Positions 12,215-24,674 of a stretch of DNA of 45,053 nucleotides are shown piece after piece (position 1 is the stretch's first letter; each line of letters starts with the position of its first letter). The notes below the pieces were generated by a model. That model worked only from the letters and a program-made list of their open reading frames with translations, was not told the DNA's origin and did no database searches. Origin of the DNA: Oscillospiraceae bacterium (lineage in GTDB: Bacteria; Bacillota; Clostridia; Oscillospirales; CAG-382); contig JAFLUP010000011.1 in the NCBI GenBank assembly GCA_022508745.1, forward strand, positions 1 through 45,053. The letters are read 5' to 3'. The translations under genes and the position numbers were made by a program.

Positions 12215-12793
12215 ATGAAACACGAACCTCTGCTGCTCGCTTCCGCCTCCCCCCGCCGCGCGGAGCTGTTGACGACGGCGGGCATCCCCTTTGCGTGCGT
12301 CCCGTCCCATGCGGACGAATTGCCCTCCGGCAGCTGTTCCCCCGATTCGTTGGTGGTGGAAAACGCCCGCCGCAAGGCGGCAGAAGTCTCCGCTCGCTTC
12401 TCCGGGCGCGTGGTGCTCGGCGCGGATACCGTGGTGGTATCAGAGGGGCAGGCGTTGGGAAAACCCCGAGACCGCGAGGACGCCAAGCGGATGCTTTACG
12501 CCCTCTCCGGAAAAACCCACCAAGTGATGACCGGCGTGTGCATGACGGATGGAAAAAGAACGGAAACGGCGCTTTCCGTCACCTACGTCACCTTCCGCGC
12601 ACTGGACGACGCCCTCATCGAGCGCTACGTCGCCAGCGGCGAATGTGACGACAAAGCGGGCGCCTACGGAATCCAGGGCAAGGGCTGCGTCCTCGTGGAA
12701 CGGCTGGAAGGGGACTACTTCGGCGTGGTCGGTCTGCCCGTATGCACGGTGGACCAAATGCTCTCCCGCTTTCTGTTCCGCGAAAAAGATTGA
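12215..12793 (+). CDS. maf: Maf-family nucleotide pyrophosphatase
   Basis: Encodes 192 residues, the usual length for Maf house-cleaning enzymes that hydrolyse non-canonical or bulk nucleoside triphosphates (dTTP/UTP in the YhdE subgroup) to monophosphates. The conserved N terminus LLLASASPRRAELL binds the triphosphate. VVLGADTVVV contains the catalytic Asp, and DKAGAYGIQGKG and the C-terminal YFGVVGLP are diagnostic. ATG at 12215 was chosen since the family begins directly with this motif; GGAAAGG upstream is somewhat distant. An in-frame upstream ATG (12146) lies at the predicted transcription start. The stop codon is embedded in the -35 box of the next gene. Confidence 0.95.
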   Translation: MKHEPLLLASASPRRAELLTTAGIPFACVPSHADELPSGSCSPDSLVVENARRKAAEVSARFSGRVVLGADTVVVSEGQALGKPRDREDAKRMLYALSGKTHQVMTGVCMTDGKRTETALSVTYVTFRALDDALIERYVASGECDDKAGAYGIQGKGCVLVERLEGDYFGVVGLPVCTVDQMLSRFLFREKD

Positions 12794-12818
12794 CAGCCGC
12801 AAGCCTTTTCGGTATAAT
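12790..12818 (+). promoter_or_regulatory. Consensus promoter of NAGPA paralog 1
   Basis: TTGACA (12790-12795), 17 bases, TATAAT (12813-12818): a perfect sigma-A consensus. The -35 box includes the maf stop codon. Confidence 0.85.
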
Positions 12819-12859: not shown

Positions 12860-14272
12860 ATGAACACACTCACCGTTGGGCAGGAAGCAGGAATCGGCAG
12901 GATCGCAAGCGTGACGACAAAACGCATCGGTGGGGATCTGCCCTTCGAAACCGTCGTGATCCACGGCGACAACGGGATGGACCACTTCCTCTATTCCTTT
13001 CCTTTTAATCCGCAGACAAGCAACTGTATGCCTCTGGCGTACTCGAAGCGGAACGGCTTCGGAGCGACGGTCTACGATACCGTCCTCAAGGCCGAAGAAC
13101 GGGGGTATGCCGTCAAAGCCGGGGTCAACGCCGCATTTTTCGGCATGACCGGCATTTTGCCCGGCGGAATCCCCACGGGGAAACCGCACACCAGTTCCAA
13201 TATCTACGGCGGCGTCGTTATCTCCGACGGCAGGATCATGCAGGGGGACAACCGATACGGTGCCGAATGGGAACTGCTCTTCCACAGTGACGGCCGAACC
13301 GATCTGGTGCAGTCCCGCATCGCCTATTCCGTCGCCGCGCAGGACAAGAACTTGCCGTTGGGGCATATCAATATGGCCCCCAACTCCCGGGAGACCACCG
13401 ATTCGGAGATCTATTACTACGATTCCTTCTGCGGCGAAATGACCGAAACCAAAGCGCCGGGCGTCGAGGTCGTATGCGAAAAGCAAAACGGCAGCGAACT
13501 CACCGTGGGCGAAACGCTGGTGGGGAAAGTGGTGGAATGTCGGGAGACCGTTTCTGCCGGCGGCGCCATCGGGGAAACGCAATTTGTCCTGCACGCATCC
13601 TCCGACTTCCCGAGCGAGCAGTACGCCCTTCTTCGCTCCCTCGCGGTCGGGGACACGGTAGAGGTCAACGCCACAGAGACCGTCGCTTCCTCCAAAACCG
13701 CGATGGAGACCTGCAGCAGTGCGTTCGTGACCTACGGCTACCATATCGTCATGGACGGCAAAAACGTCACCGATTCCGACAGGCTGGGCTATGAATTCAA
13801 CATCACCCGGGCGCAGCGCACGGCGATCGGCATCCAAGCGGACGGCGGACTACTCCTGGTCGCAGCGGACGGCAGAAAGCCGGAGTTCCCCGGCATGACC
13901 GTTTACGAATTGGCGGATTATATGATCTCCCGGGGCTGCGTCACCGTCGTCGATCTGGACGGCGGCGGCTCCACGCAGGTGACGGTGGAAAACGACTCCG
14001 GCGAGCCGGAATGTATTTTCGATTCGGAGAGCCGGTTAGTGGCAAACAGCCTGCTGATCGTCGCCCGCCCGAAAATCGACGCAAAAACCAAGGATCTCCT
14101 GCGTGCGCTGGTCGCCCGTGGCAGCGCTTTCGCGGAAAGCGAACCCGGTCTGACGGAAGCGATGCAATTCGCAAAAGGGGTGGTCGACGCCGAAACGTCC
14201 ATGCCCGGCGATTACACAAAGGCCATGATGCGTCTGCGGAAAGCGCTGGAGTCCGTGCGCGCAAACGTGTAA
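12860..14272 (+). CDS. NAGPA/DUF2233 phosphodiester glycosidase-family protein, short paralog 1
   Basis: A 470-residue protein of the phosphodiester glycosidase family (related to the uncovering enzyme that removes GlcNAc from phosphodiesters). The domain spans about residues 20-400, with VKAGVNAAFFGMTG near 85-98, YELADYMISRGC near 350 and the family motif DLDGGGSTQV near 365. A short helical module follows (SMPGDYTKAMMRLRKAL, ending near 465). Unlike its three downstream relatives it has no signal peptide, no second helical module and no dockerin, so it is predicted cytoplasmic. Start: AAAGGAGG 7 bases upstream and a perfect promoter. It ends exactly where base composition drops at the AT-rich island, so the C terminus may have been lost by insertion. 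Closest in sequence to paralog 3. Substrate unknown. Confidence 0.85.
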   Translation: MNTLTVGQEAGIGRIASVTTKRIGGDLPFETVVIHGDNGMDHFLYSFPFNPQTSNCMPLAYSKRNGFGATVYDTVLKAEERGYAVKAGVNAAFFGMTGILPGGIPTGKPHTSSNIYGGVVISDGRIMQGDNRYGAEWELLFHSDGRTDLVQSRIAYSVAAQDKNLPLGHINMAPNSRETTDSEIYYYDSFCGEMTETKAPGVEVVCEKQNGSELTVGETLVGKVVECRETVSAGGAIGETQFVLHASSDFPSEQYALLRSLAVGDTVEVNATETVASSKTAMETCSSAFVTYGYHIVMDGKNVTDSDRLGYEFNITRAQRTAIGIQADGGLLLVAADGRKPEFPGMTVYELADYMISRGCVTVVDLDGGGSTQVTVENDSGEPECIFDSESRLVANSLLIVARPKIDAKTKDLLRALVARGSAFAESEPGLTEAMQFAKGVVDAETSMPGDYTKAMMRLRKALESVRANV

Positions 14273-14334
14273 AACAGCCGATATCAAAAATAGGCACATG
14301 CAAGAGAATCAAGCAGCCTGACGTATGTAAAACG

Positions 14335-14383
14335 AAAAGGGCGAATTGAATAATCTATTTATAGGATCATCAATTCGCCTTTT
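14335..14383. terminator. Hairpin at the left end of the island
   Basis: AAAAGG-GCGAATTGA (14335-14349, one bulged G) pairs with TCAATTCGCCTTTT (14370-14383) across a 20-base loop, ending in a T run. It would terminate transcription from NAGPA paralog 1. Confidence 0.7.
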
Positions 14384-14521
14384 CTTGTTATTGTGGCAGT
14401 TTTATTTGACAAACATCTGATATTTACATTGTTTTATAAGCTTGATTATGTTAAAATTAAAATTAAGGAGAACTTATAATTATAAAAATAGTGTCGAAAA
14501 GAGAATTTTTTTGCAAAATAC

Positions 14522-14550
14522 TTGATTGATATAGAGAAATATGATATAAT
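14522..14550 (+). promoter_or_regulatory. Predicted promoter of the island operon
   Basis: TTGATT (14522-14527), 17 bases, TATAAT (14545-14550), about 65 bases before the first island gene. Confidence 0.55.
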
Positions 14551-14619
14551 GCAAAAAATGTAATTTGCATTTTAGGCTTTTAATGTCTGCTATTTGTTCT
14601 ATTAGGGGAATAAAAATAT

Positions 14620-15147
14620 ATGGGAAACCCGCGTGAAAAGCTACGAGATTTTATAAATTCTACCTGTATCAAGATACTTGAATGGAGAGGGTTTGACATT
14701 TCCAAACCTTTTCTAAGTATTAATATATTTCGACATCTTATTTTAGCGTGTTGCTGTATAATAATGTTTGTATTATCGATTATTTCGATTAAGACAGTTG
14801 GACTTTTCTTATTTTTCTTTCACTTTATAAGTCTTTTCTATAAGTGGACGATAACGTTATTTAAAAAGCGGAATTGTAAAATAGAAGCTGATTTTAATAA
14901 AACTGTGGCTGAAATAAAAGTAAGTTCTCCTTATACCAAACAGTTTTCCCGGTTATCAATGGTGTTGCTGGTTTTGGCTTTGATATTCGTACTCGCTATT
15001 TGTAAAATTCCTAATATTACCTTCGATGTACTGTACACAATCGCCGTGTATTTGAGCATAATAACCACGCTGGTGTGGGATGTTCTTGATGGTTTGGTAT
15101 CACTCTATCATGCAAAGCCGCATATTAATGTCATTGAAATCCAATAA
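14620..15147 (+). CDS. Unknown four-helix membrane protein (island gene 1)
   Basis: A 175-residue protein with a polar N terminus of about 30 residues and four predicted membrane helices in two hairpins: about 34-55 (LILACCCIIMFVLSIISI), 57-78, 108-127 (LSMVLLVLALIFVLAICKI) and 131-156. A basic, polar cytoplasmic-looking loop of about 30 residues separates the hairpins. I recognise no family. Two-hairpin membrane proteins next to a soluble partner occur among defence and toxin effectors, but that is only analogy. The Shine-Dalgarno is AGGGGAA, 9 bases upstream. It is AT-rich and unlike the surrounding genome. First gene of a three-gene unit; the next starts 28 bases later. Confidence 0.75.
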   Translation: MGNPREKLRDFINSTCIKILEWRGFDISKPFLSINIFRHLILACCCIIMFVLSIISIKTVGLFLFFFHFISLFYKWTITLFKKRNCKIEADFNKTVAEIKVSSPYTKQFSRLSMVLLVLALIFVLAICKIPNITFDVLYTIAVYLSIITTLVWDVLDGLVSLYHAKPHINVIEIQ

Positions 15148-15175
15148 GGAATAAAGTTAGAAAAGAGACATACTT

Positions 15176-15379
15176 ATGGAATTGTTTATGCTGTCATCAG
15201 TGTTACTTGTTGTATCTATTATTATTTCAGCCATAGTGTATCAATATGCCGTAGAAAAAAAGAGAGCATACATTAAGTCGAATTTACTGATGGAAAATGA
15301 TGGCGATGATCCTTGCAATAAAGATCATTCATTTACTGTTGAAACTGATTATGCTGAGAGATGGATTATAGAGGATTAG
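15176..15379 (+). CDS. Unknown small single-pass membrane protein (island gene 2)
   Basis: A 67-residue protein with one N-terminal helix at about 4-24 (FMLSSVLLVVSIIISAIVYQ), a short basic patch (EKKRAYIK) and an acidic tail (ENDGDDPCNKD), predicting the N terminus outside and the tail in the cytoplasm. No family recognised. The Shine-Dalgarno is weak (AAAAGAGA). Its stop codon is one base from the start of the next gene (TAG-T-ATG), indicating translational coupling and supporting it as a real gene despite its size. Confidence 0.6.
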   Translation: MELFMLSSVLLVVSIIISAIVYQYAVEKKRAYIKSNLLMENDGDDPCNKDHSFTVETDYAERWIIED

Positions 15380-15380
15380 T

Positions 15381-15929
15381 ATGAGAGCACTAATAGACTC
15401 ATTTTGGGGACAGCTTGAAGCAACCAGTCAAAAATATCAGGTGAAAGATTCATCAATATGTTTCAATGTAGAAACATATGACGAATATTGTAAGCTTTTT
15501 AAAACCATTTATGATGATATTAAAGATCGTTATATGAAAAAGAACGTTCAAGCTTTAGATCGTCATAAAGTAGCTGCGGTATTTATAGTCTCAACTTTAG
15601 AAGCAAATGTTATAACTTATGAGAAAGAATTATCAGATAATCATCATTTCCTGGGCAAAGAGATGTTTGCAACAGAAGTTGCATGGGCTTGGATGCTGAA
15701 ATCTTTTAATGAAAAGTTGAAAGATGTAGGTTTGAAAACAGTTGAAAGTTACCATATGCCTGTTCCCTTTGCTTGTGAAACCCCTTATTTTGATATATTT
15801 TCACGTAATTTATATTTTTCAAAGTCTAATACTAAATTAATTGTTTTAGATATTGCTGAGAAGTTGTTCCTATTAGAATATATTACGCTTTTGTATAATG
15901 ATATTGATCCCAAGTTGTTGCAAGATTAG
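15381..15929 (+). CDS. Unknown soluble protein (island gene 3)
   Basis: A 182-residue, mostly helical, probably cytoplasmic protein with no signal peptide or membrane segment. Features: an acidic/aromatic N-terminal half (VETYDEYCKLFKTIYDDIKD), a central RHKVAAVFIVSTLEANVI stretch, a Trp pair in VAWAWMLKSFNE, and a C-terminal helix IAEKLFLLEYITLLYNDI. No catalytic motif stands out and no family was recognised. AGAGGA before the start and coupling to the previous stop argue that it is translated with it. A hairpin terminator follows at 15994-16030, so the operon is three genes. Confidence 0.7.
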   Translation: MRALIDSFWGQLEATSQKYQVKDSSICFNVETYDEYCKLFKTIYDDIKDRYMKKNVQALDRHKVAAVFIVSTLEANVITYEKELSDNHHFLGKEMFATEVAWAWMLKSFNEKLKDVGLKTVESYHMPVPFACETPYFDIFSRNLYFSKSNTKLIVLDIAEKLFLLEYITLLYNDIDPKLLQD

Positions 15930-15993
15930 TTTTAATCACTAAATGTGCTACTGTCTATTGTGTGGTAACAAGTTTACAACAAACTTAAATATC

Positions 15994-16030
15994 AAAACCG
16001 ACCTATGATTAATTGCACAGGTCGGTTTTT
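15994..16030 (+). terminator. Terminator of the island operon
   Basis: An 11-bp perfect stem (15994-16004 with 16019-16029), a 14-base loop and a T tract. Confidence 0.8.
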
Positions 16031-16113
16031 CACACCAAAATTGTTGAACTTTTATTGAAATAGCAACTACCAATTTGATAGCTAAAGCAGTTTGAATTAT
16101 ATATGGAAATTAT

Positions 16114-16162
16114 AAAACAGCGCTTATATAACACTTTCAAGGTGTAATATAGGCGCTGTTTT
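16114..16162. repeat. Long imperfect inverted repeat in the island
   Basis: Arms of about 22 bases (16114-16135 and 16141-16162), the outer 10 pairs perfect (AAAACAGCGC / GCGCTGTTTT), ending in Ts. It could be a second terminator or a mobile-element structure. It lies between the operon terminator and the recombinase remnant. Confidence 0.6.
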
Positions 16163-16273
16163 CTCGTACAGAGTAGTATAAAGCAAGTTTTCTTGAAACG
16201 AAATTCCCTCTTACTATATTTACCTCCATAGATATCTTGTAAAATTAAATGAGCGATACGGAGGTAATACAAT

Positions 16274-16592
16274 ATGGCGAATACTTACGGGTATGTACGG
16301 GTTTCCAGTACAGATCAAAATGAGGATAGGCAGATGCTTGCACTGCGTGAAAAGGCTATCCGATACTGCCAAAGAGCAGTCAGATGTAGATGAGTTTATA
16401 CGCAGGCTGAAAGCGTATATGGAAGTGCCGGAGCTGACGCGGGAGATGTGCATGGAGCTGATTGAATTCATCACCGTGGACGAATGCCCGGGCAAGTACA
16501 GCGAGCAGCCGAGAGAAATTCATATCTACTACAAGCTGATCGACAAAACCGCAAGCAAAGAACAATTCCAATCGTGGGAAAACAACAAGTGA
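16274..16592 (+). pseudogene. Chimeric, broken serine recombinase remnant
   Basis: The first frame (16274-16393) starts after GGAGGT and reads MANTYGYVRVSSTDQNEDRQ, the N terminus of small serine resolvases with the catalytic Ser in VRVSS. It then stops after 39 codons. In a second frame, from about 16345 to 16592, the sequence reads EQSDVDEFIRRLKAY, LTREMCMELIEFITVDE and IHIYYKLIDK, which matches the extreme C-terminal domain (DUF4368) of large serine recombinases of the Tn916/Tn4451-type conjugative elements. The whole catalytic core and DNA-binding middle are absent. The junction lies near 16340-16360 and joins two different recombinase families out of frame. It is a deletion scar of one or two mobile elements and cannot be active. 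Confidence 0.8.
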
Positions 16593-16623
16593 CGATTTTT
16601 GACATTAACAACTGTGCAAATAT

Positions 16624-16659
16624 AACGCCGCCGCTTCAAACCAGCAGCGGCGTTTTTTT
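16624..16659 (+). terminator. Terminator upstream of NAGPA paralog 2
   Basis: A 12-bp GC-rich stem with one mismatch (16624-16635 with 16643-16654), a 7-base loop and seven Ts. This and the following 75 bases resemble the spacers after paralogs 2 and 3; it was probably the original terminator of paralog 1 before the island arrived. Confidence 0.85.
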
Positions 16660-16707
16660 GTGCAAAATCAATAAATTGTTTCGAAAATATTTGGGCTGTG
16701 CTATGGA

Positions 16708-16736
16708 TTGACAACAGCGTCGCTTTGCCTTATAAT
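16708..16736 (+). promoter_or_regulatory. Consensus promoter of NAGPA paralog 2
   Basis: TTGACA (16708-16713), 17 bases ending GCTTTGCCT, TATAAT (16731-16736). The GCTTTGCC element before the -10 is shared with paralogs 3 and 4. Confidence 0.85.
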
Positions 16737-16774
16737 GAAGATAACAACTCTATAGAAAAAGGAGCAAGCAAAAC

Positions 16775-19654
16775 ATGAAGCTGAAAAGAAAACTTCTTTG
16801 TCTGACGCTTTCCGTGCTGATGGTGTTTACCGTCTGCGGAGCTTTGATGGTCTCCGCGGAGACCACCTTCCGGGTGGACAGCGGCGACGGATCCGGCGTT
16901 ATGTACTATGGCGGGACCTACAATTCCTGCAATATACATACGCTGACCTTCAATACGGATGACTATGCCGTCATCCCCTTTTCCGCCTATTCGGGCGGCA
17001 CGTACACCCTCAACGGGCAGTACAGCCAGGCCGTCAACTGGGGCTATGAACCGGTCGGCATTATCAACGGCGACTTCTTCAATATGTCCAACGGCTACCT
17101 GAACGATTACATCGTTTCCAACGGTGAGGTCGTCATCGGCGACTCCAACACCCACGGCAGCATGACCTGTATCATGCCGGACGGTTCCTTCAAGACCGTC
17201 GCGACCTCCCGGCTCAGCTTCGCCACCTACCTCAACGGCATGGAAGTGCCGGGCGGTATCTCCTACATCAACCGCCGTCCCAACCGGAATGCGGCGGATG
17301 GCTGGACCGACGCCCTGTACTACTACGATTTCACCGCGGCATCCGACAAATGCCCGCTGGCAGGCGTTGCCGTCATTTGTAAAAAGCTGGACGGCACCGT
17401 CCTTTCCATCGGCGGCACCATGGAAGCACAAGTTGTTTCCGTCGAGGAAAAGTCCAACGCCAACGGCATCACCCTCGCGAAGGATGAATTCCTCCTCTAC
17501 GTCCGCTCCTCCTCCCCGCTGGCAGCAACGCTCAAAGCGCTGAAAAAGGGCGACTCCGTCACCGTCAACGCCAGCGAAACCGTGGCGGCTTCGGCTGACG
17601 TTACCACCAATGCCACTTCTATCCTTGCCAACATCGGCTACCTGGTCAAGGACGGCAAAAACTTTGCGGCCACCGATGAATTCAACACCATCGACCCGCA
17701 CGGCAACAAATATAAAGCCGCTTGGACCGCGTTCGGCGTCAAGGAAGACGGCTCTTGGATGTTCTTCATCTCCGAGGCTTCCAATCAGCTGACGCAGCCG
17801 CAGGTGGCGGATTACATGATCAGCCAGGGCTGCAAGACCGTCATCCGTCTGGACGGCGGCGGATCCGTTGCCATGTACCTCAGCGATGCCGGAAACGGCA
17901 GTGAAGGCTACGCTTACAACCAGGGTCGTAACGTCCCGGACTGCCTGATGGTGGTCAAGCGCAGCAGCGCGGCTCTGCAGCCTTCCGACGAAACCAAGAC
18001 CGCTCTGGAGGATCTGATCGCCAAGGCGCAGGATTCCACGGACGAAGACGTGAAAGCTGCGCTGGAGTACGCGCAAAGCGTCGTGAAGAACGACAAGTCC
18101 GTCTCCGGCGATTATACCAAGGCTATGATGCGCCTGCGGGATGCACTCAACAATAAGGGCGTATTGAGCACGATGTTGGCGCTCGCTTCCGGTGCAACCT
18201 ACAGCGATTACAGCGAATATGTCCTGACCCGTCTGCGTGAGGCTTATGCCGCCGGTTCCGAAGTCTTCGGCAACCCCAACGCCACGGCGGACGAGATCGC
18301 CATCGCCACCGCACAGTTGGTCAAATGGGTGAACGCCAAGGGGGAATACTCCACCAGCGAAGCCACCTATCCCAAGATCACCACGGACGGCAACTTCTAC
18401 TTCTCCCACTTCAACACCAAGATCGCTGAAGGCGACAATACCCTCTTCACCCCCGGTCAAAGCATCGCGCAGAATGACGCCAACCTGAAATGGGCGGGCG
18501 CGATCCTGCTTCACAAGAACGCGCACGGCAGTTATGTCGTAGAAAATGTCGTCAACGGCGCTGCAATGGGTTCGGACGACTATGTTCCCAACGAACTGGG
18601 CTTCACCGTCGTTCCGGAGGGCTACCTTGTCCTGGGTGCACACGGCGAAGAAAACAATACCGCGGTCAGAACCGCCGCGAAAGTCGGCTCCATCTTCGTC
18701 CCCCACGGCATAGACATCGAGAAGAGGAACATCGGCGTCGGCGCGTACTTCTCCTTCGAACCCGCTACCGGCGACGGTCACACCTTCGAATGGAAGGTCA
18801 CGAAAGCTCCCACCTGCAATGAAAAGGGTTCGGAGATCCTCACCTGCACCATCTGCGGCGCGACCACCGGCAGCCCCCGCGTCCTCGACGAGCTGGATCA
18901 CGTCTACAAGGACGGCAAGTGCCTGCTCTGCGGCGACATCCAGCCGACCAACGTCGCACTCGGCAAAGATTACAAAATCGGCCACGGCACAAATAATGCC
19001 ACCTACAACGCCAGCCTGACCGACGGCAACGCCTCCACCGGGCTGTCTTACCAGCCTGATGAATGGTTCGGTTTTGTCGCTTCCAACACGCAGAACAATG
19101 TAGGTACCGCTACCATCGACCTCGGCGACAACTATGTCATCAGTTACGCCAGCGTCCACACCTACTTCGGCAGGACCGGCGACGGCGTCGTCACGCCTGC
19201 CTCTATGAAGGTGGAAGTCTCCTCCGACGGCACCAACTACACCATGTTGGGCGCAGAAGTAACGTATGCCAACCCCGAGCAGGCTCCCGGCTTCACCACC
19301 GAGTGGATCAACTTCGCCGGTGAAGAGACCGTGACCGGCCGCTATGTCAGATTGACGGTCGTCATTCAGGGCGCTTTCGCGTTCCTCAACGAAATCGAAG
19401 TGTATGGCGTCCCGGTCAAGGCGGATGATCCCGTCGATCCCACGCCTTCCGGCATGATCGGCGACGTGAACTGCAACGGCAAGCTGGACGCGCTGGACTA
19501 CGCCTACCTCAAGCGCCACATTATGGGCACCTACAAGCTGACGGACGAAGGGCTCGCCCTCGCGGACATTGACGGGAACGGAAAGATCAACTCCCTGGAC
19601 TATATGTACCTCAAACGCGCCTTCCTCGGGACCTATAAAATTCCGGAACGTTAA
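16775..19654 (+). CDS. Secreted NAGPA-family protein with discoidin-like module and dockerin, paralog 2
   Basis: A 959-residue multidomain protein. It starts with a signal peptide (residues 1-28, ending MVSAETT). A phosphodiester glycosidase (NAGPA/DUF2233) domain covers about 45-395, with IINGDFFNMSNGYL near 97-110 and RLDGGGSVAMYL near 358. Two helical modules follow (about 400-530), then a module of unknown type (about 531-668, containing LGFTVVPEGYLVLGAHG). A Cys-rich motif spans about 669-722 (PTC, TCTICG, CLLCG). An F5/8-type C (discoidin-like) carbohydrate-binding module spans about 726-880. The type I dockerin is 894-959, with two calcium loops, DVNCNGKLDALD and DIDGNGKINSLD. Predicted to be secreted and to dock to a cohesin. 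It is preceded by a perfect promoter and a purine-rich AAAAAGGAGC site. Catalytic substrate unknown; dockerin assignment is strong. Confidence 0.9.
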   Translation: MKLKRKLLCLTLSVLMVFTVCGALMVSAETTFRVDSGDGSGVMYYGGTYNSCNIHTLTFNTDDYAVIPFSAYSGGTYTLNGQYSQAVNWGYEPVGIINGDFFNMSNGYLNDYIVSNGEVVIGDSNTHGSMTCIMPDGSFKTVATSRLSFATYLNGMEVPGGISYINRRPNRNAADGWTDALYYYDFTAASDKCPLAGVAVICKKLDGTVLSIGGTMEAQVVSVEEKSNANGITLAKDEFLLYVRSSSPLAATLKALKKGDSVTVNASETVAASADVTTNATSILANIGYLVKDGKNFAATDEFNTIDPHGNKYKAAWTAFGVKEDGSWMFFISEASNQLTQPQVADYMISQGCKTVIRLDGGGSVAMYLSDAGNGSEGYAYNQGRNVPDCLMVVKRSSAALQPSDETKTALEDLIAKAQDSTDEDVKAALEYAQSVVKNDKSVSGDYTKAMMRLRDALNNKGVLSTMLALASGATYSDYSEYVLTRLREAYAAGSEVFGNPNATADEIAIATAQLVKWVNAKGEYSTSEATYPKITTDGNFYFSHFNTKIAEGDNTLFTPGQSIAQNDANLKWAGAILLHKNAHGSYVVENVVNGAAMGSDDYVPNELGFTVVPEGYLVLGAHGEENNTAVRTAAKVGSIFVPHGIDIEKRNIGVGAYFSFEPATGDGHTFEWKVTKAPTCNEKGSEILTCTICGATTGSPRVLDELDHVYKDGKCLLCGDIQPTNVALGKDYKIGHGTNNATYNASLTDGNASTGLSYQPDEWFGFVASNTQNNVGTATIDLGDNYVISYASVHTYFGRTGDGVVTPASMKVEVSSDGTNYTMLGAEVTYANPEQAPGFTTEWINFAGEETVTGRYVRLTVVIQGAFAFLNEIEVYGVPVKADDPVDPTPSGMIGDVNCNGKLDALDYAYLKRHIMGTYKLTDEGLALADIDGNGKINSLDYMYLKRAFLGTYKIPER

Positions 19655-19672
19655 CCCATACCCTCAAAAACC

Positions 19673-19706
19673 GCCGCCGCAGGGAAACCTGCGGCGGCAC
19701 TTTTCT
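19673..19706 (+). terminator. Terminator after NAGPA paralog 2
   Basis: An 11-bp GC stem (19673-19683 with 19688-19698), a GAAA loop, then ACTTTTCTTT. Confidence 0.85.
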
Positions 19707-19756
19707 TTGCGCAGAATCGACAAATTCCCCAAAAAAGAGTTGAAAAGCGACACGGA

Positions 19757-19785
19757 TTGACAATCGCTCCGCTTTGCCGTATAAT
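19757..19785 (+). promoter_or_regulatory. Consensus promoter of NAGPA paralog 3
   Basis: TTGACA (19757-19762), 17 bases ending GCTTTGCCG, TATAAT (19780-19785). Confidence 0.85.
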
Positions 19786-19805
19786 GAAGAAAAAGTACCG
19801 ATTCC

Positions 19806-22115
19806 ATGAAAAAGGAAGTGCAGCATCCCTTGAACGTCCTGCGCAAACGACTCCCTCTCCTTTTGGCGGCAATTCTCCTCCTGTCCGCGGCGAGCGGATT
19901 CCTTTCCGCCGCGGCCGTCTCGGCAGGAGACGACGCCGGCTTCGGCAGCGTCACGGGGAACACCTCCCGCACGGTGGCCGAAGGGCTCACCTACGAAAGC
20001 ACCTCCGTCGCCGGGACTGTCGGCGGTAATCAGCAGCTCCATACCCTCACCTTCAACCCGAAAACAAGCGATTTCATGCCCATCGTGTATTCCCAATACA
20101 CCGGCTACGGAGCCACCACCCTGAATTCCGCCAAACGGGCGGAATCCGTCGGGTACGACGTGAAGGGCGGCGTAAACGCGGCGTTCTTCGGGTTCACAGG
20201 CAAAAGCGCCAATACCTACGGCGGCGTCAACATTTGCGACGGCAAAATTCTGCAAGGCAACAACGCCCACGGGGAGGCATGGGAACTGATCTTCAACAGC
20301 GACGGCAGCTCCGCGCTGGTGCGCTCCAGAGTCACCTACTCCCTCGTCGCCCAGCACGGCGCGTGGAACGCCCCGCTGACCTACATCAACATCTGCCCCG
20401 AAATCAACAGCCAGGGGGAAAATACCACAGGTACCGGCATTTACTACTACGATACCTTCTGCGGCACCAAGACCGATACGAAAAAAGCAGGCGTTGAGAT
20501 CCTCTTTGAAAAACAGAATCACACCGAGCTGACCGTGGGCGGCACGCTGATCGGGAAAGTGGCGGAAGTCCGGGCGAACACCTCCACAGGCAACCCGGTA
20601 GGCGCCACCCAGTTCGTGCTTTACGCCTCCGACGACAGCCCGTACGCTTCCTCCCTGCGCAAGTTTGCCGTCGGCGACGTAGTGGAGATCACCGCGGAGG
20701 AAACCGTCGTTTCTTCCAAAACCGCCATGGAAACTTGCAGCAGCGCGGTGGTCACATACGGCTACCACATCGTGGAAAACGGAACGAACGTCACGGCAAA
20801 CGACGGGCTGGGAGACGCCTTCAACAAAGAACGCGCACAGCGCAGCGCCATCGGCATCAAGGCGGACGGCACCCTCGTCATCGTCGCCTCCCCCGGCAGA
20901 ACCACCGCCAACACGGGACTTACCGTTTATGAACTGGCGGACTACATGATCTCCCAGGGCTGCGTCACCGCCGTAAATCTGGACGGCGGCGGTTCCACGC
21001 AGATGGTAGTGGAAAACGAATCCGGCGATCTGGTGTCGGCGGTCTCTACCACCCGCGCGGTGGCAAACAGCATCCTCATTGTCTCCCGCCCCGCCATCGA
21101 CCCCGAAATCGCGGGAACGCTGCAAACGCTGATCGCCACTGCAACCGCGCTGGCGAACAACACCTCCGACGGGAACAAGGACGCGCTGAAGGCGGCGCTG
21201 ACCCACGCCAACGCCGTTTTCACCGAAAAAACCTCCATGCCCGGCGATTATTCCAAAGCCATCATGCGTTTGCAGGAAGCGCTGGATACCAAAGCGCCGC
21301 TGCGCGAGCTGCTGAAGAAAACCGCCGGAATCAGCTTCACAGCGTACAGTGAATACGTCCTCGAGCATCTTCGCGCCGCGCACGCGGAGGCGTTCAAGGT
21401 TTACACGAAGGACAACGCCGCCCAATCCGAAATAGATCAGGTCTACGCGGAACTGCTGAAATGGTACAACGCCACCGGAAGCTACAAAGAAGGTGGCAAG
21501 ACCTATCCGCAGCTCACGAACGAGGGCAATTTCTACCTCTCCTACTTCAACCGGAAGATCGAAACCGACGACTGCAACCTCTTCACCTCGGGGGAAAGCA
21601 TCGAAGCAGCCGCCGCCAACCTCACGTACTCCGCCGCGATCCTGCTGCGAAAAAACGAAAAAGGGCAATACATTGTAGAAAAGATCGTCAACGGCGCCGC
21701 GGCCGGCGGTTCGGGAACCTACGTCCCCGAAAAGCTCGGCTTCACCGTCGTTCCGGAGGGCTGTATCGTCATCGGCGCCCATGGAAAGAGCAATGTCCCC
21801 GTCAGATTCGCGGCGGAAATCGGTCTGGCACTGGTCCCCCACGGGTTTGACATCGAAACGAAGACCATCGGTGTCGGCGCGTATTTCTCGTTTGAAGCGC
21901 CCGCACCCGTCGGCATGATCGGCGACGTGAACTGCAACGGCAGACTGGACGCGCTGGACTATGCCTACCTCAAGCGGCACATCCTCGAAACTTACAAGCT
22001 GACGGAGGAAGGGCTCGCCCTTGCGGACGTGGACGGGAACGGAAAGATCAATGGTCTGGACTATGCCTTCCTCAAACGCGCCTTCCTCGGGACCTATAAA
22101 ATTCCGGAACGCTAA
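19806..22115 (+). CDS. Secreted NAGPA-family protein with dockerin, paralog 3
   Basis: 769 residues from the ATG at 19806. That ATG lies only about 14 bases past the predicted transcription start and has no Shine-Dalgarno. An in-frame TTG at 19830 is preceded by AAAGGAAG and would give a classical signal peptide (NVLRKRLPLLLAAILLLSAA), so it may be the real start. The NAGPA domain covers about 50-430, with GVNAAFFGFTG near 120 and NLDGGGSTQM near 392. Two helical modules (about 435-560), the LGFTVVPEGCIVIGAHG module (about 560-698) and a dockerin (704-769, loops DVNCNGRLDALD and DVDGNGKINGLD) follow. The discoidin-like and Cys-rich modules of paralog 2 are absent. The catalytic domain is of the same subtype as paralog 1. 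Secreted and probably cohesin-bound; substrate unknown. Confidence 0.9.
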   Translation: MKKEVQHPLNVLRKRLPLLLAAILLLSAASGFLSAAAVSAGDDAGFGSVTGNTSRTVAEGLTYESTSVAGTVGGNQQLHTLTFNPKTSDFMPIVYSQYTGYGATTLNSAKRAESVGYDVKGGVNAAFFGFTGKSANTYGGVNICDGKILQGNNAHGEAWELIFNSDGSSALVRSRVTYSLVAQHGAWNAPLTYINICPEINSQGENTTGTGIYYYDTFCGTKTDTKKAGVEILFEKQNHTELTVGGTLIGKVAEVRANTSTGNPVGATQFVLYASDDSPYASSLRKFAVGDVVEITAEETVVSSKTAMETCSSAVVTYGYHIVENGTNVTANDGLGDAFNKERAQRSAIGIKADGTLVIVASPGRTTANTGLTVYELADYMISQGCVTAVNLDGGGSTQMVVENESGDLVSAVSTTRAVANSILIVSRPAIDPEIAGTLQTLIATATALANNTSDGNKDALKAALTHANAVFTEKTSMPGDYSKAIMRLQEALDTKAPLRELLKKTAGISFTAYSEYVLEHLRAAHAEAFKVYTKDNAAQSEIDQVYAELLKWYNATGSYKEGGKTYPQLTNEGNFYLSYFNRKIETDDCNLFTSGESIEAAAANLTYSAAILLRKNEKGQYIVEKIVNGAAAGGSGTYVPEKLGFTVVPEGCIVIGAHGKSNVPVRFAAEIGLALVPHGFDIETKTIGVGAYFSFEAPAPVGMIGDVNCNGRLDALDYAYLKRHILETYKLTEEGLALADVDGNGKINGLDYAFLKRAFLGTYKIPER

Positions 22116-22135
22116 CCCATTCCATATCCCATCCG

Positions 22136-22174
22136 AAAGCGCCGCCGCGGAAAACCCGCCACGGCGCTTTTCTT
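22136..22174 (+). terminator. Terminator after NAGPA paralog 3
   Basis: AAAGCGCCG (22136-22144) pairs with CGGCGCTTT (22162-22170), with additional inner GC pairing, followed by TCTTT. Confidence 0.8.
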
Positions 22175-22223
22175 TGCACAAAATAGACAAATTTCCCTTA
22201 AAATATTTGGAACGCCATGCGGA

Positions 22224-22252
22224 TTGACAACCGACCCGCTTTGCCTTATAAT
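22224..22252 (+). promoter_or_regulatory. Consensus promoter of NAGPA paralog 4
   Basis: TTGACA (22224-22229), 17 bases ending GCTTTGCCT, TATAAT (22247-22252). Confidence 0.85.
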
Positions 22253-22292
22253 TGTAATAGATATCATAAGTTCTTATAAAGGAGCGGACACC

Positions 22293-24674
22293 ATGAAGAC
22301 AAGAAGCAAATTCCTTTGTCTGGCACTTTCCCTGCTGATGGTGCTGACCGTCTGTGCCCCCCTCACGGTTTCCGCCGCCGGATACCGGGTAGACGGTGGG
22401 AACGGCTCCGGCGTCGTGTACAACGGAACCGTTTACAGCTCCTATAACGTCCACACGCTGACCTTTGATCCGGCGGACTATGTGGTCCTGCCCTTTGCCG
22501 GATACGCGGGAGGCACCTACACGCTGGACGGGCAATACAGCCAGGCCGTCGCCCGGGGATACGATGTGGTGGGCGTGGTCAACGGGGATTTCGCCAACAT
22601 GAGCACCGGCTATCTGAATGATTACATCGTCACCAACGGCGAAGTGGTCATCGGGGACGATACGCGGCATGGCAGCATGACCTGCGTCCTATCGGACGGC
22701 ACGATCCAGACCGTCGACGCTTCGCAGCTGAACTTTTCCGCTTATTTCAACGGCGTGGAGGTGCCGGGCGGCATCTCCTACATCAACCGCCGTCCCAACC
22801 GCACCGCAGCGGACGGCTGGACGGACGCCATCTACTACTTTGACGTCTACGCCGCGCCGGACAAATGCCCCCTTGCGGGCGTCGCGGTGCTGTGCAAAAA
22901 ATTGAACGGCACCGTCCTGTCCATCGGCGGCACCATGGAAGCGCAAGTCGTCTCCGTGGAGGAAAAGCCCAACGCCAACGGAATTAATCCGGCGAAGGAT
23001 GAATTCCTCCTGTACGTGCGGGCGACTTCCCCGCTGGCAAACACGCTGAAAGCGCTGAAAAAAGGGGATTCCGTCACCATCTCGACCTCCGAAACCGTCG
23101 AAGCGTCCGTGGAGACCGTCACCAACGCCACCTCCATCCTCGCCAACATCGGCTATCTGGTCAAGGACGGCAAAAACCTTGCGGCGGACGCTTCCTTCAA
23201 CAACGGCGCTCCCCACAGCAACACCTACAAGGCGCAATGGACCGCTTTCGGCACCAAAGCCGACGGAACTTGGGTGATCTTCACCTCCGAAGGCAACAGC
23301 GGAAGCACAGGGCTGAACCTCAAGCAGGTGGCGGACTATATGATGAGCCTCGGCTGCACCACCGTCATCCGTCTGGACGGCGGCGGCTCTTCCGCCATGT
23401 ATCTCTGTGACGACGGCAGCGGCAAGGCGGGCTACAAGGAAAATTACGGCCGCCCCGTGGCGGATTGCCTGATCATCGCAAAACGGAGCAGCAGCGCCCT
23501 ACAGCCTTCCGGCGAAATGAAAACGGCGCTGACGAACCTGATGAAGCAGGCGCAGGGCTCGGCGGATCCTTACGTGCAGACCGCTTTGGCCCACGCCCAA
23601 AGCGTGGCAAACCGCAAGACCTCCGTCTCCGGGGACTACACCTACGCCATGATGCGCCTGAAAGACGCGCTTTCCGGCAAGGCTTCGCTGAACGTGCTGA
23701 TGTCCCTTGCGCTGGGCGCGGAGTTCAAGCAATACAGCGAATACGCCCTGACCCGCCTGCGGGAAGCGTATGCGGATGCGTCCAAAGTGTTCGGGAGCGG
23801 CAGCTCGTCGGCGGACGACATCGCCGTTGCCTACGCCCGGTTGGAGAAATGGCTGAATTCCAAGGGAAAATATTCCACAAGCGACGCCACCTATCCCCAA
23901 CTGACCTCCAACGGAACTTTCTATCTTTCCCGTTTCAACGCAGGTATGCAGGAAAACGGCTGCAACATTTTCACCCCCGGCGCCAGTATCGAGCAGAAAT
24001 ATGCCAACCTGTGGTGGTCCAGCGCCGTCCTGCTGCGGAAGAACGCCCACGGCAGTTATGTGGTGGAAAAAACGGCGATCGGCGGCGGAAACACCACCCA
24101 TATCCCGGAACAGTTCGGCTTCACCATCGTGCCGGAGGATTGCATCGTCATCGGCGCCCACGGCGCTTGCGAAAATACCGTCCGCTCCGCCGCCGTCACG
24201 GGGAAGATCTTTGTCCCCCACGGGTTTGATCTTGCAAACCAAACCGTCGGAGTCGGCGCGTATTTCACCTTTGAAACCGCGGACAGCGGCGGGCACACCT
24301 ACGATTGGAAGGTCACAAAAACGCCCACCTGCACCGCAAAGGGTTCGGAGATCCTCACCTGTGCACACTGTGGCAAAACCACCGGCTCCCCCCGCACCAT
24401 CGACGAATCCGGGCATTTCTTCCGTGACGGCAAGTGCCTGATCTGCGGAAGCGCTTCCCCCGCGGGACGTATCGGCGACGTGAACCGCAACGGCAAGCTG
24501 GACGCGATGGACTACGTCTTCCTCAAACGTCATATCCTCGAAACCTACAAGCTGCCGGACGAAGCGCTCGCTCTTGCGGACGTGGACGGGAACGGAAAAA
24601 TCAACGCGATGGACTACGCCTTCCTCAAGCGCGCCTTCCTCGGGACTTATTTTATCAAAGATCCCAACGTATAA
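22293..24674 (+). CDS. Secreted NAGPA-family protein with Cys-rich motif and dockerin, paralog 4
   Basis: 793 residues from ATG 22293 (AAAGGAG, 8 bases upstream; a longer in-frame reading would start inside the -35 box). Signal peptide 1-28 (FLCLALSLLMVLTVCAPLTV). The NAGPA domain covers about 40-390, with VVNGDFANMSTGYL near 96-109, where the second Phe of paralog 2's NGDFF is Ala, and RLDGGGSSAMYL near 362. Two helical modules and the LGFTVVPEG-like module (here FGFTIVPEDCIVIGAHG) follow. A Cys-rich motif (about 668-725; PTC, CAHCG, CLICG) and a type I dockerin (about 727-793; DVNRNGKLDAMD and DVDGNGKINAMD) close the protein. Closest to paralog 2 but without the discoidin-like module. No terminator follows, so the DtxR-like gene may be read through. 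Confidence 0.9.
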   Translation: MKTRSKFLCLALSLLMVLTVCAPLTVSAAGYRVDGGNGSGVVYNGTVYSSYNVHTLTFDPADYVVLPFAGYAGGTYTLDGQYSQAVARGYDVVGVVNGDFANMSTGYLNDYIVTNGEVVIGDDTRHGSMTCVLSDGTIQTVDASQLNFSAYFNGVEVPGGISYINRRPNRTAADGWTDAIYYFDVYAAPDKCPLAGVAVLCKKLNGTVLSIGGTMEAQVVSVEEKPNANGINPAKDEFLLYVRATSPLANTLKALKKGDSVTISTSETVEASVETVTNATSILANIGYLVKDGKNLAADASFNNGAPHSNTYKAQWTAFGTKADGTWVIFTSEGNSGSTGLNLKQVADYMMSLGCTTVIRLDGGGSSAMYLCDDGSGKAGYKENYGRPVADCLIIAKRSSSALQPSGEMKTALTNLMKQAQGSADPYVQTALAHAQSVANRKTSVSGDYTYAMMRLKDALSGKASLNVLMSLALGAEFKQYSEYALTRLREAYADASKVFGSGSSSADDIAVAYARLEKWLNSKGKYSTSDATYPQLTSNGTFYLSRFNAGMQENGCNIFTPGASIEQKYANLWWSSAVLLRKNAHGSYVVEKTAIGGGNTTHIPEQFGFTIVPEDCIVIGAHGACENTVRSAAVTGKIFVPHGFDLANQTVGVGAYFTFETADSGGHTYDWKVTKTPTCTAKGSEILTCAHCGKTTGSPRTIDESGHFFRDGKCLICGSASPAGRIGDVNRNGKLDAMDYVFLKRHILETYKLPDEALALADVDGNGKINAMDYAFLKRAFLGTYFIKDPNV

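Follow-up and report, generated by a model that had tools for sequence, protein, structure and literature searches.

Cohesin-dockerin complexes are known mainly as plant-fibre degraders. The window analysed here, a stretch of 45,053 nucleotides from an Oscillospiraceae bacterium that is a relative of uncultured herbivore-gut Clostridia, carries four plus-strand genes (genes 1 to 4, products P1 to P4) of the phosphodiester-glycosidase family PF09992 (NAGPA/DUF2233), and genes 2, 3 and 4 end in type I dockerins, to which gene 2 adds an F5/8-type C domain (Pfam). Neither the dockerins nor the F5/8-type C domain appeared in the description given by an earlier, sequence-only reading of the locus. 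The genome to which the window belongs resembles cellulosome producers, for instance Ruminococcus flavefaciens, in that many of its secreted proteins bear type I dockerins and that it encodes cohesin proteins as well as one protein joining a cohesin to a dockerin; it differs from them in its few cohesins, its several peptidoglycan and phosphodiester hydrolases and the fact that no plant-fibre enzyme was recognised by Pfam in the 30 of its dockerin proteins that were scanned (cellulosomes are reviewed in the corresponding sections of PMC12484212). We propose that the NAGPA heads of genes 2 to 4 are exported and displayed by their dockerins on a small cohesin-based surface assembly working on bacterial wall material, a proposal that in our judgement could equally turn out right or wrong.

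Described members of PF09992 include the animal uncovering enzyme (6pku, 6pki, 6u11), BACOVA_00430 (3ohg), and BPSS2145 (6ozd), the human enzyme being treated in sections of PMC12024695. The P2 and P3 heads share their fold, as predicted by models with pLDDT of 93.2 and 90.7, and the DGGGS and Asn motifs are common to these members and the window heads, with the Arg-[TS] motif shared by subtype A as well. Differences lie in the dockerin tails and long extra modules of the window proteins, in an identity of 17-22% in structural alignment and, for subtype B, in a Trp/Arg exchange described below. Bacillota proteins combining NAGPA with TelC, and sometimes with NlpC/P60, are reported in the relevant passages of PMC12419801; like the window genes, they bring NAGPA together with wall-directed enzymes in secreted proteins, but there a single polypeptide carries the enzymes and a role in conflict is proposed, whereas here the dockerins would unite separate enzymes. 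Fusions of NAGPA to extracellular calcineurin-like domains are mentioned in PMC11488536, in the part concerned with them. In the open-access literature searched, no paper was found that pairs "dockerin" with "phosphodiester glycosidase" or "glycerophosphodiester phosphodiesterase", nor, among the papers listed, any dockerin system aimed at bacterial walls.

The assignment of all four genes to one catalytic family, as claimed by the sequence-only reading, was borne out by PF09992 scores of 85.4, 61.5, 94.8, and 77.6 bits for genes 1 to 4 (curated cut-off, 25), and the motifs that it had quoted are present in all of them. Genes 1 and 3 share the first motif GVNAAFFG, followed later by DLDGGGSTQ (gene 1) or NLDGGGSTQ (gene 3), whereas gene 2 shows NGDFFNMS and RLDGGGSVAMYL, and gene 4, NGDFANMS and RLDGGGSSAMYL. 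Pairwise identity was 54% between genes 1 and 3, 65% between genes 2 and 4, and 30-43% for the cross pairs. For the phylogeny, 40 stretches around NAGPA matches were taken (39 from genus-mates, one from the own genome), giving, with the window, 47 heads; the tree was built from the 41 that were sufficiently complete, the window's four included, and a second, smaller tree had 19 rows. In the 41-row tree, the two proposed subtypes, 1+3 (clade A) and 2+4 (subtype B), fell on separate clades (100/100), so that the suggested pairing held at the level of subtypes. NAGPA genes were detected in 23 of the 24 genomes of the genus and in 50 of the 59 of the order, the own genome being counted in both. 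A motif scan of 28 order-level loci gave eight counts, seven of them with Asn before DGG[GA]S and one spurious; named genomes were scanned with a pattern requiring R or D before LDGGGS, which disfavours members of the Asn type. The own assembly, which consists of 120 contigs, contains five NAGPA matches, four of them the window genes. The fifth lies on another contig (L105, G000:C110) in a frame of 2139 codons, with the top family score of the five, and keeps the usual Arg and Asn motifs.

The company of these genes was then described from the dockerin and cohesin matches of the own genome (G000, 93% complete), which number 31 and 3, respectively; dockerins on secreted enzymes and cohesins thus occur in one genome, as in a cellulosome. 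The dockerin proteins scanned correspond to 30 of the 31 matches. Nine of the 30 are NAGPA proteins, peptidoglycan hydrolases, GDPD or phosphoesterase (three NAGPA, two amidases, a glucosaminidase, a GH25, a GDPD, and a calcineurin-like phosphoesterase), and two are GDSL proteins. The others comprise five BspA-type LRR proteins, two DUF4127, one DUF4434, one DUF4855, a CotH protein, a subtilase, a CAP protein, a protein with both cohesin and dockerin, an F5/8C protein, and five in which no other domain was recognised. The CotH protein has a dockerin that scored under the cut-off, and the Amidase_2 dockerin reaches it only when taken with its neighbours in the frame. Plant cell-wall enzymes do not appear as the main dockerin cargo, since none was recognised in this set and GH5, the only plant-fibre family sought genome-wide, was absent from 3/3 genus genomes. 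A similar company was found in two genus-mates: G023 (20 dockerin proteins) shares NAGPA, GDPD, GH25, Amidase_2, GDSL, and LRR, and G007 (37 dockerin proteins), among the matches listed, shares NAGPA, GDPD, Amidase_3, glucosaminidase, phosphoesterase, GDSL, and LRR, with up to seven Pfam families of its dockerin proteins lying beyond that listing. Cohesins were detected in 21 of the 24 genus genomes, the own one included. One of the own cohesin proteins has two cohesins and a C-terminal hydrophobic stretch, and another joins a cohesin, just over the cut-off, to a dockerin and is encoded beside a GDPD gene. At that place (L177:12315-16337), the dockerin GDPD gene is followed by the gene of the cohesin-dockerin protein, a possible adaptor.

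Our proposal is built from sequence, that is, from the family, the fold, the leaders (judged by eye on genes 2 to 4), the dockerins, the cohesins of the genome, and the dockerin-bearing peptidoglycan hydrolases, GDPD, and phosphoesterase. The dockerins would bind the cohesins, and the heads would hydrolyse sugar-1-phosphodiester bonds in wall glycopolymers, acting alongside amidases, glucosaminidase, lysozyme, and GDPD; candidate substrates are teichoic-type polymers or their link to peptidoglycan. Teichoic acid is joined to peptidoglycan through GlcNAc-1-phosphate-6-MurNAc, and this link would be the favoured substrate because the animal enzyme cuts GlcNAc-1-phosphate-6-mannose. The sequence-only reading had suggested extracellular phosphodiester-linked glycans as targets, which fits the leaders on genes 2 to 4 and the dockerin enzymes, with wall polymers ahead of yeast mannan. 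That the enzymes instead scavenge phosphoglycans of the diet or of fungi, yeast phosphomannan for example, had also been suggested by that reading, and would accord with the herbivore-gut records of the closest named relatives and with the presence in the family of an animal enzyme acting on GlcNAc-P-mannose; we consider it quite improbable, as no mannan-directed dockerin enzyme was recognised in the 30 own proteins scanned. A single Mannosidase_ig domain was seen in G007.

A stronger competitor, though still an unlikely one in our estimation, is a role in remodelling the wall polymers of the producer itself (turnover, release, or spacing of surface glycopolymers), with the dockerins or SLH repeats only keeping the enzymes at the surface. 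All three SLH matches of G023 lie in an A3 NAGPA frame and three of the four in G007 lie in a NAGPA frame, which puts those heads on the producer's wall; no SLH match was found in G000 at its 93% completeness. The frequency of NAGPA genes in the order points the same way, as does LytR-CpsA-Psr, with one match each in G000 and G023, although the search of G007 gave none. Against own-wall remodelling, the dockerin amidases, glucosaminidase, and GH25 together look digestive, though autolysins use the same families. PF04464 gave one match each in G023 and G007 and none in G000, where the genome is incomplete and other polymers are possible; this absence leans weakly towards foreign walls, for G000 only.

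Within the array, gene 3 looks like a B-type gene with a replaced head. In sliding segments over its head (from residue 76 to 425), its identity was 58-86% with the A3 genes that G022 and G023 carry and 13-55% with genes 2 and 4, whereas past residue 500 or so it was 12-26% with A3 and 38-86% with genes 2 and 4. In a tree of the middle region, genes 2, 3, and 4 came together at 98/98. For the 110 bases upstream of gene 3, identity with the corresponding stretch was 72% for gene 4, 63% for gene 2, 58% for gene 1, and 36-39% for A3, and the spacer separating genes 2 and 3 could be aligned over its length with the one separating genes 3 and 4. Because tail, dockerin, and upstream region are B-like and the head is A3-like, a B-type gene with a swapped head is the history that these comparisons suggest. 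The nearest heads to that of gene 3 belong to SLH-anchored NAGPA proteins of the genus (L087, L088, L089, L074), with 69% identity to L087; in these relatives, the A3 head is followed by three SLH repeats where gene 3 has its dockerin, and an SH3-like segment was over threshold in none of the four. When phage sequences were searched with P3, 23 records gave matches, all of them partial (best E 6e-10); in no case was as much as 80% of the query covered.

The relatives also bear on the origin of the array. A single pair, A1 then B, occupies the site in G021 and G023, between Aldedh, AA_kinase, and Maf genes on one side (Pfam), which we read as proA, proB, and maf, and an iron-dependent-repressor-like gene on the other; two contig ends of G022 fit the same A1-B order. 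Gene 1 grouped with the genes of L067, L068, and L070 (100/100 in the 41-row tree, 99/100 in the 19-row tree), its A1 relatives in G021-G023 sitting at this same site, while the gene 3 head grouped with L087, L088, and L089 (94/82 and 77/76, respectively). Genes 2 and 4 were sisters at 94/99 in the 41-row tree. The sisterhood of genes 1 and 3 was rejected by the approximately unbiased (AU) test (p-AU 1.8e-7); the two are old paralogues. The promoter TTGACA-N17-TATAAT has four exact matches in the 45-kb window, one 5' of each NAGPA gene, and none in 100 shuffles, and comparable promoters lie 5' of the A1 and B orthologues (L067, L068, L069, L070), one of them with a spacer of 16.

The sequence-only reading had explained the array by amplification of a two-gene unit, an A-B pair duplicated as such, to which the A-B-A-B order and the shared subtypes of 1+3 and 2+4 lend some appearance. 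This we consider very improbable, given the rejection of P1+P3, the single pair in G021 and G023, the location at this site of the A1 genes with which P1 groups, and the chimeric gene 3, whose tail is B-type and whose upstream region is nearer to genes 4 and 2 than to gene 1. We suggest instead that an ancestral A1-B pair grew as the B gene gave further copies, that the middle B copy received the head of an A3 paralogue, SLH-anchored in relatives, that an AT-rich element was inserted after gene 1, and that gene 1 lost its export signal and dockerin; the order of these steps is not fixed by the proposal.

The two subtypes differ in the position of an Arg. The first-motif Asn and the DGGGS motif are invariant in 41/41 heads, and the Arg of R-[TS]-x-x-G, common to animal NAGPA and BACOVA_00430, is kept in genes 1 and 3, whereas its place before T-x-x-G is taken by Trp in genes 2 and 4, which have another Arg 45 residues later, before LDGGGS. 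The exchange is perfect over the 41 heads, R occurring with D/N in 9 and W or Q with R in 32. Subtype B may therefore no longer be a phosphodiester glycosidase, and genes 2 and 4 might encode a glycan-binding or differently acting derivative, an explanation that is compatible with the other readings and that we hold to be doubtful, though deserving of weight. It draws on the replacement by Trp of an Arg shared by animal NAGPA and 3ohg, on the Arg before LDGGGS in those 32 heads, and on gene 4, the sole head of the 41 in which the first motif has Ala at its second Phe position. The invariance of DGGGS and of the first-motif Asn speaks against it, as does the ratio of nonsynonymous to synonymous substitution rates (dN/dS) of about 0.23 between P2 and P4, which implies that the head stays constrained.

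Several observations weigh against the wall-directed assembly and the history proposed here. Regarding the company, 19 of the 30 own dockerin proteins fall outside NAGPA, peptidoglycan hydrolases, GDPD, phosphoesterase, and GDSL; dockerins on LRR proteins and peptidases are already described for the plant-fibre degrader R. flavefaciens in the pertinent part of PMC3573020; the genome-wide search for plant-fibre families covered GH5 alone; and the matches listed for G007 also include GH20, a Mannosidase_ig domain, and a beta-helix of pectate-lyase-like type. Cohesin scores were modest, the third G000 cohesin match (in a subtilase) did not recur at E 0.001, and no cohesin was found in 3 of the 10 best genus genomes. 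As for the enzymes, the Arg found in known members is missing from genes 2 and 4, and the Trp/Arg exchange amounts to one change per site on the tree (40/41 rows matched), so that it counts as a single event. Concerning gene 3, the A3 kinship of its head has modest support, its placement with the A1 group was not rejected (p-AU 0.287), and the middle-region tree takes in part of the FIVAR-like segment ahead of the joint. Finally, the sisterhood of P2 and P4, and with it their standing as recent duplicates, was left undecided by the 19-row tree (p-AU 0.486), and the promoter pattern was unmatched in the three A3 genes tested, two of which show TTGACA with TATACT.

Gene 1 stands apart as a leaderless and dockerin-less member (no signal peptide by eye, no dockerin by Pfam) that keeps a perfect promoter and intact motifs, and its product, if translated, would stay in the cytoplasm. 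A hydrophobic leader and a dockerin are both present on its orthologues from G021 and G023. A leader hidden upstream or in another frame was rejected, as the reading frame opens just 11 codons 5' of the ATG and the other two frames showed no hydrophobic leader by eye. A decaying pseudogene was likewise rejected, the frame being open and the motifs intact. The GC content at third codon positions is 0.77, compared with 0.79-0.80 in genes 2-4, and dN/dS to three A1 orthologues is about 0.27-0.29, a whole-branch average in which recent decay could be hidden.

The coordinates of the locus are collected in the table. The tandem arrangement that the sequence-only reading had described stands as to the four genes, but their spacing is uneven, with 2.5 kb between genes 1 and 2 that are mostly an AT-rich insert (GC 0.349 at 14001-16000), at a place where the A1 and B frames of G021 and G023 nearly touch. 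Neither of the two open reading frames (ORFs) located first in the insert had a Pfam match at E 0.01. The insert is probably a mobile-element remnant, because it holds a fragment of DUF4368, a domain that occurs in serine recombinases. For gene 4, the most likely start is the ATG at 22293, because the TTG at 22224 begins the gene's own -35 box, TTGACA; a start at that TTG was rejected for this reason. The FIVAR-like segment of gene 2 scored below its Pfam cut-off, and the consensus for terminator-like hairpins was found at 20 sites, compared with 17.0 in shuffles. A Cys-rich segment with repeated C-x-x-C pairs is common to genes 2 (about 18800-18980) and 4 (about 24300-24460), ahead of their last domains, with no Pfam match listed.

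Table. Positions in the window of the NAGPA genes and of associated features.
Feature	Position	Strand	Remarks
Gene 1 (P1, A1 subtype)	12860..14272	+	NAGPA head, 470 aa, no dockerin
Gene 2 (P2, B subtype)	16775..19654	+	Leader, NAGPA head, FIVAR-like segment, middle region, F5/8-type C, type I dockerin
Gene 3 (P3), apparent chimera	19806..22115	+	A3-type head joined to a middle region and dockerin of B type
Gene 4 (P4, B subtype)	22293..24674	+	Leader, NAGPA head (NGDFA for NGDFF), middle region, type I dockerin
F5/8-type C (discoidin/CBM32-like) domain, gene 2	19007..19366	+	Pfam, 30.7 bits (cut-off 28.2)
Dockerin, gene 2	19460..19627	+	Pfam
Dockerin, gene 3	21921..22088	+	Pfam; 87% identity to gene 2 dockerin
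Dockerin, gene 4	24474..24641	+	Pfam
Approximate head/tail joint, gene 3	21231..21381	+	Sliding identity; P3 residues about 476-525
AT-rich insert	14273..16650	no strand	Holds ORFs 14620-15147 and 15381-15929 and DUF4368 fragment 16293-16589
Promoter, gene 1	12790..12818	+	TTGACA-N17-TATAAT, exact sigma-A-type match
Promoter, gene 2	16708..16736	+	TTGACA-N17-TATAAT, exact match
Promoter, gene 3	19757..19785	+	Exact match; ends 20 nt 5' of ATG, no clear Shine-Dalgarno
Promoter, gene 4	22224..22252	+	Exact match; overlaps TTG called as start in ORF listing
Terminator-like hairpin between genes 2 and 3	19673..19698	+	Consensus match only

Beyond the locus itself, the chimera of gene 3 suggests one head moving between two surface-display systems, and the dockerin sets of the genus, with their several peptidoglycan and phosphodiester hydrolases, suggest that the architecture of the plant-fibre complexes may also serve wall digestion. 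The proposal also offers a concrete candidate substrate for the bacterial NAGPA family, which is poorly characterised. A wider view, which we advance tentatively and think rather unlikely, is that of a genus-wide cohesin-dockerin machine for bacterial walls. Its NAGPA enzymes would act on the GlcNAc-alpha-1-phosphate-6-MurNAc link between peptidoglycan and teichoic acids or related polymers, which closely resembles the bond that the animal enzyme cuts, and the gene 3 swap and the Trp/Arg exchange would fit into this view. If true, the machine would be a wall-degrading counterpart of the cellulosome; the change from SLH to dockerin in gene 3 would have transferred such an enzyme to it from the surface of the wall, and subtype B, with its Trp/Arg exchange, would have a rebuilt active site.

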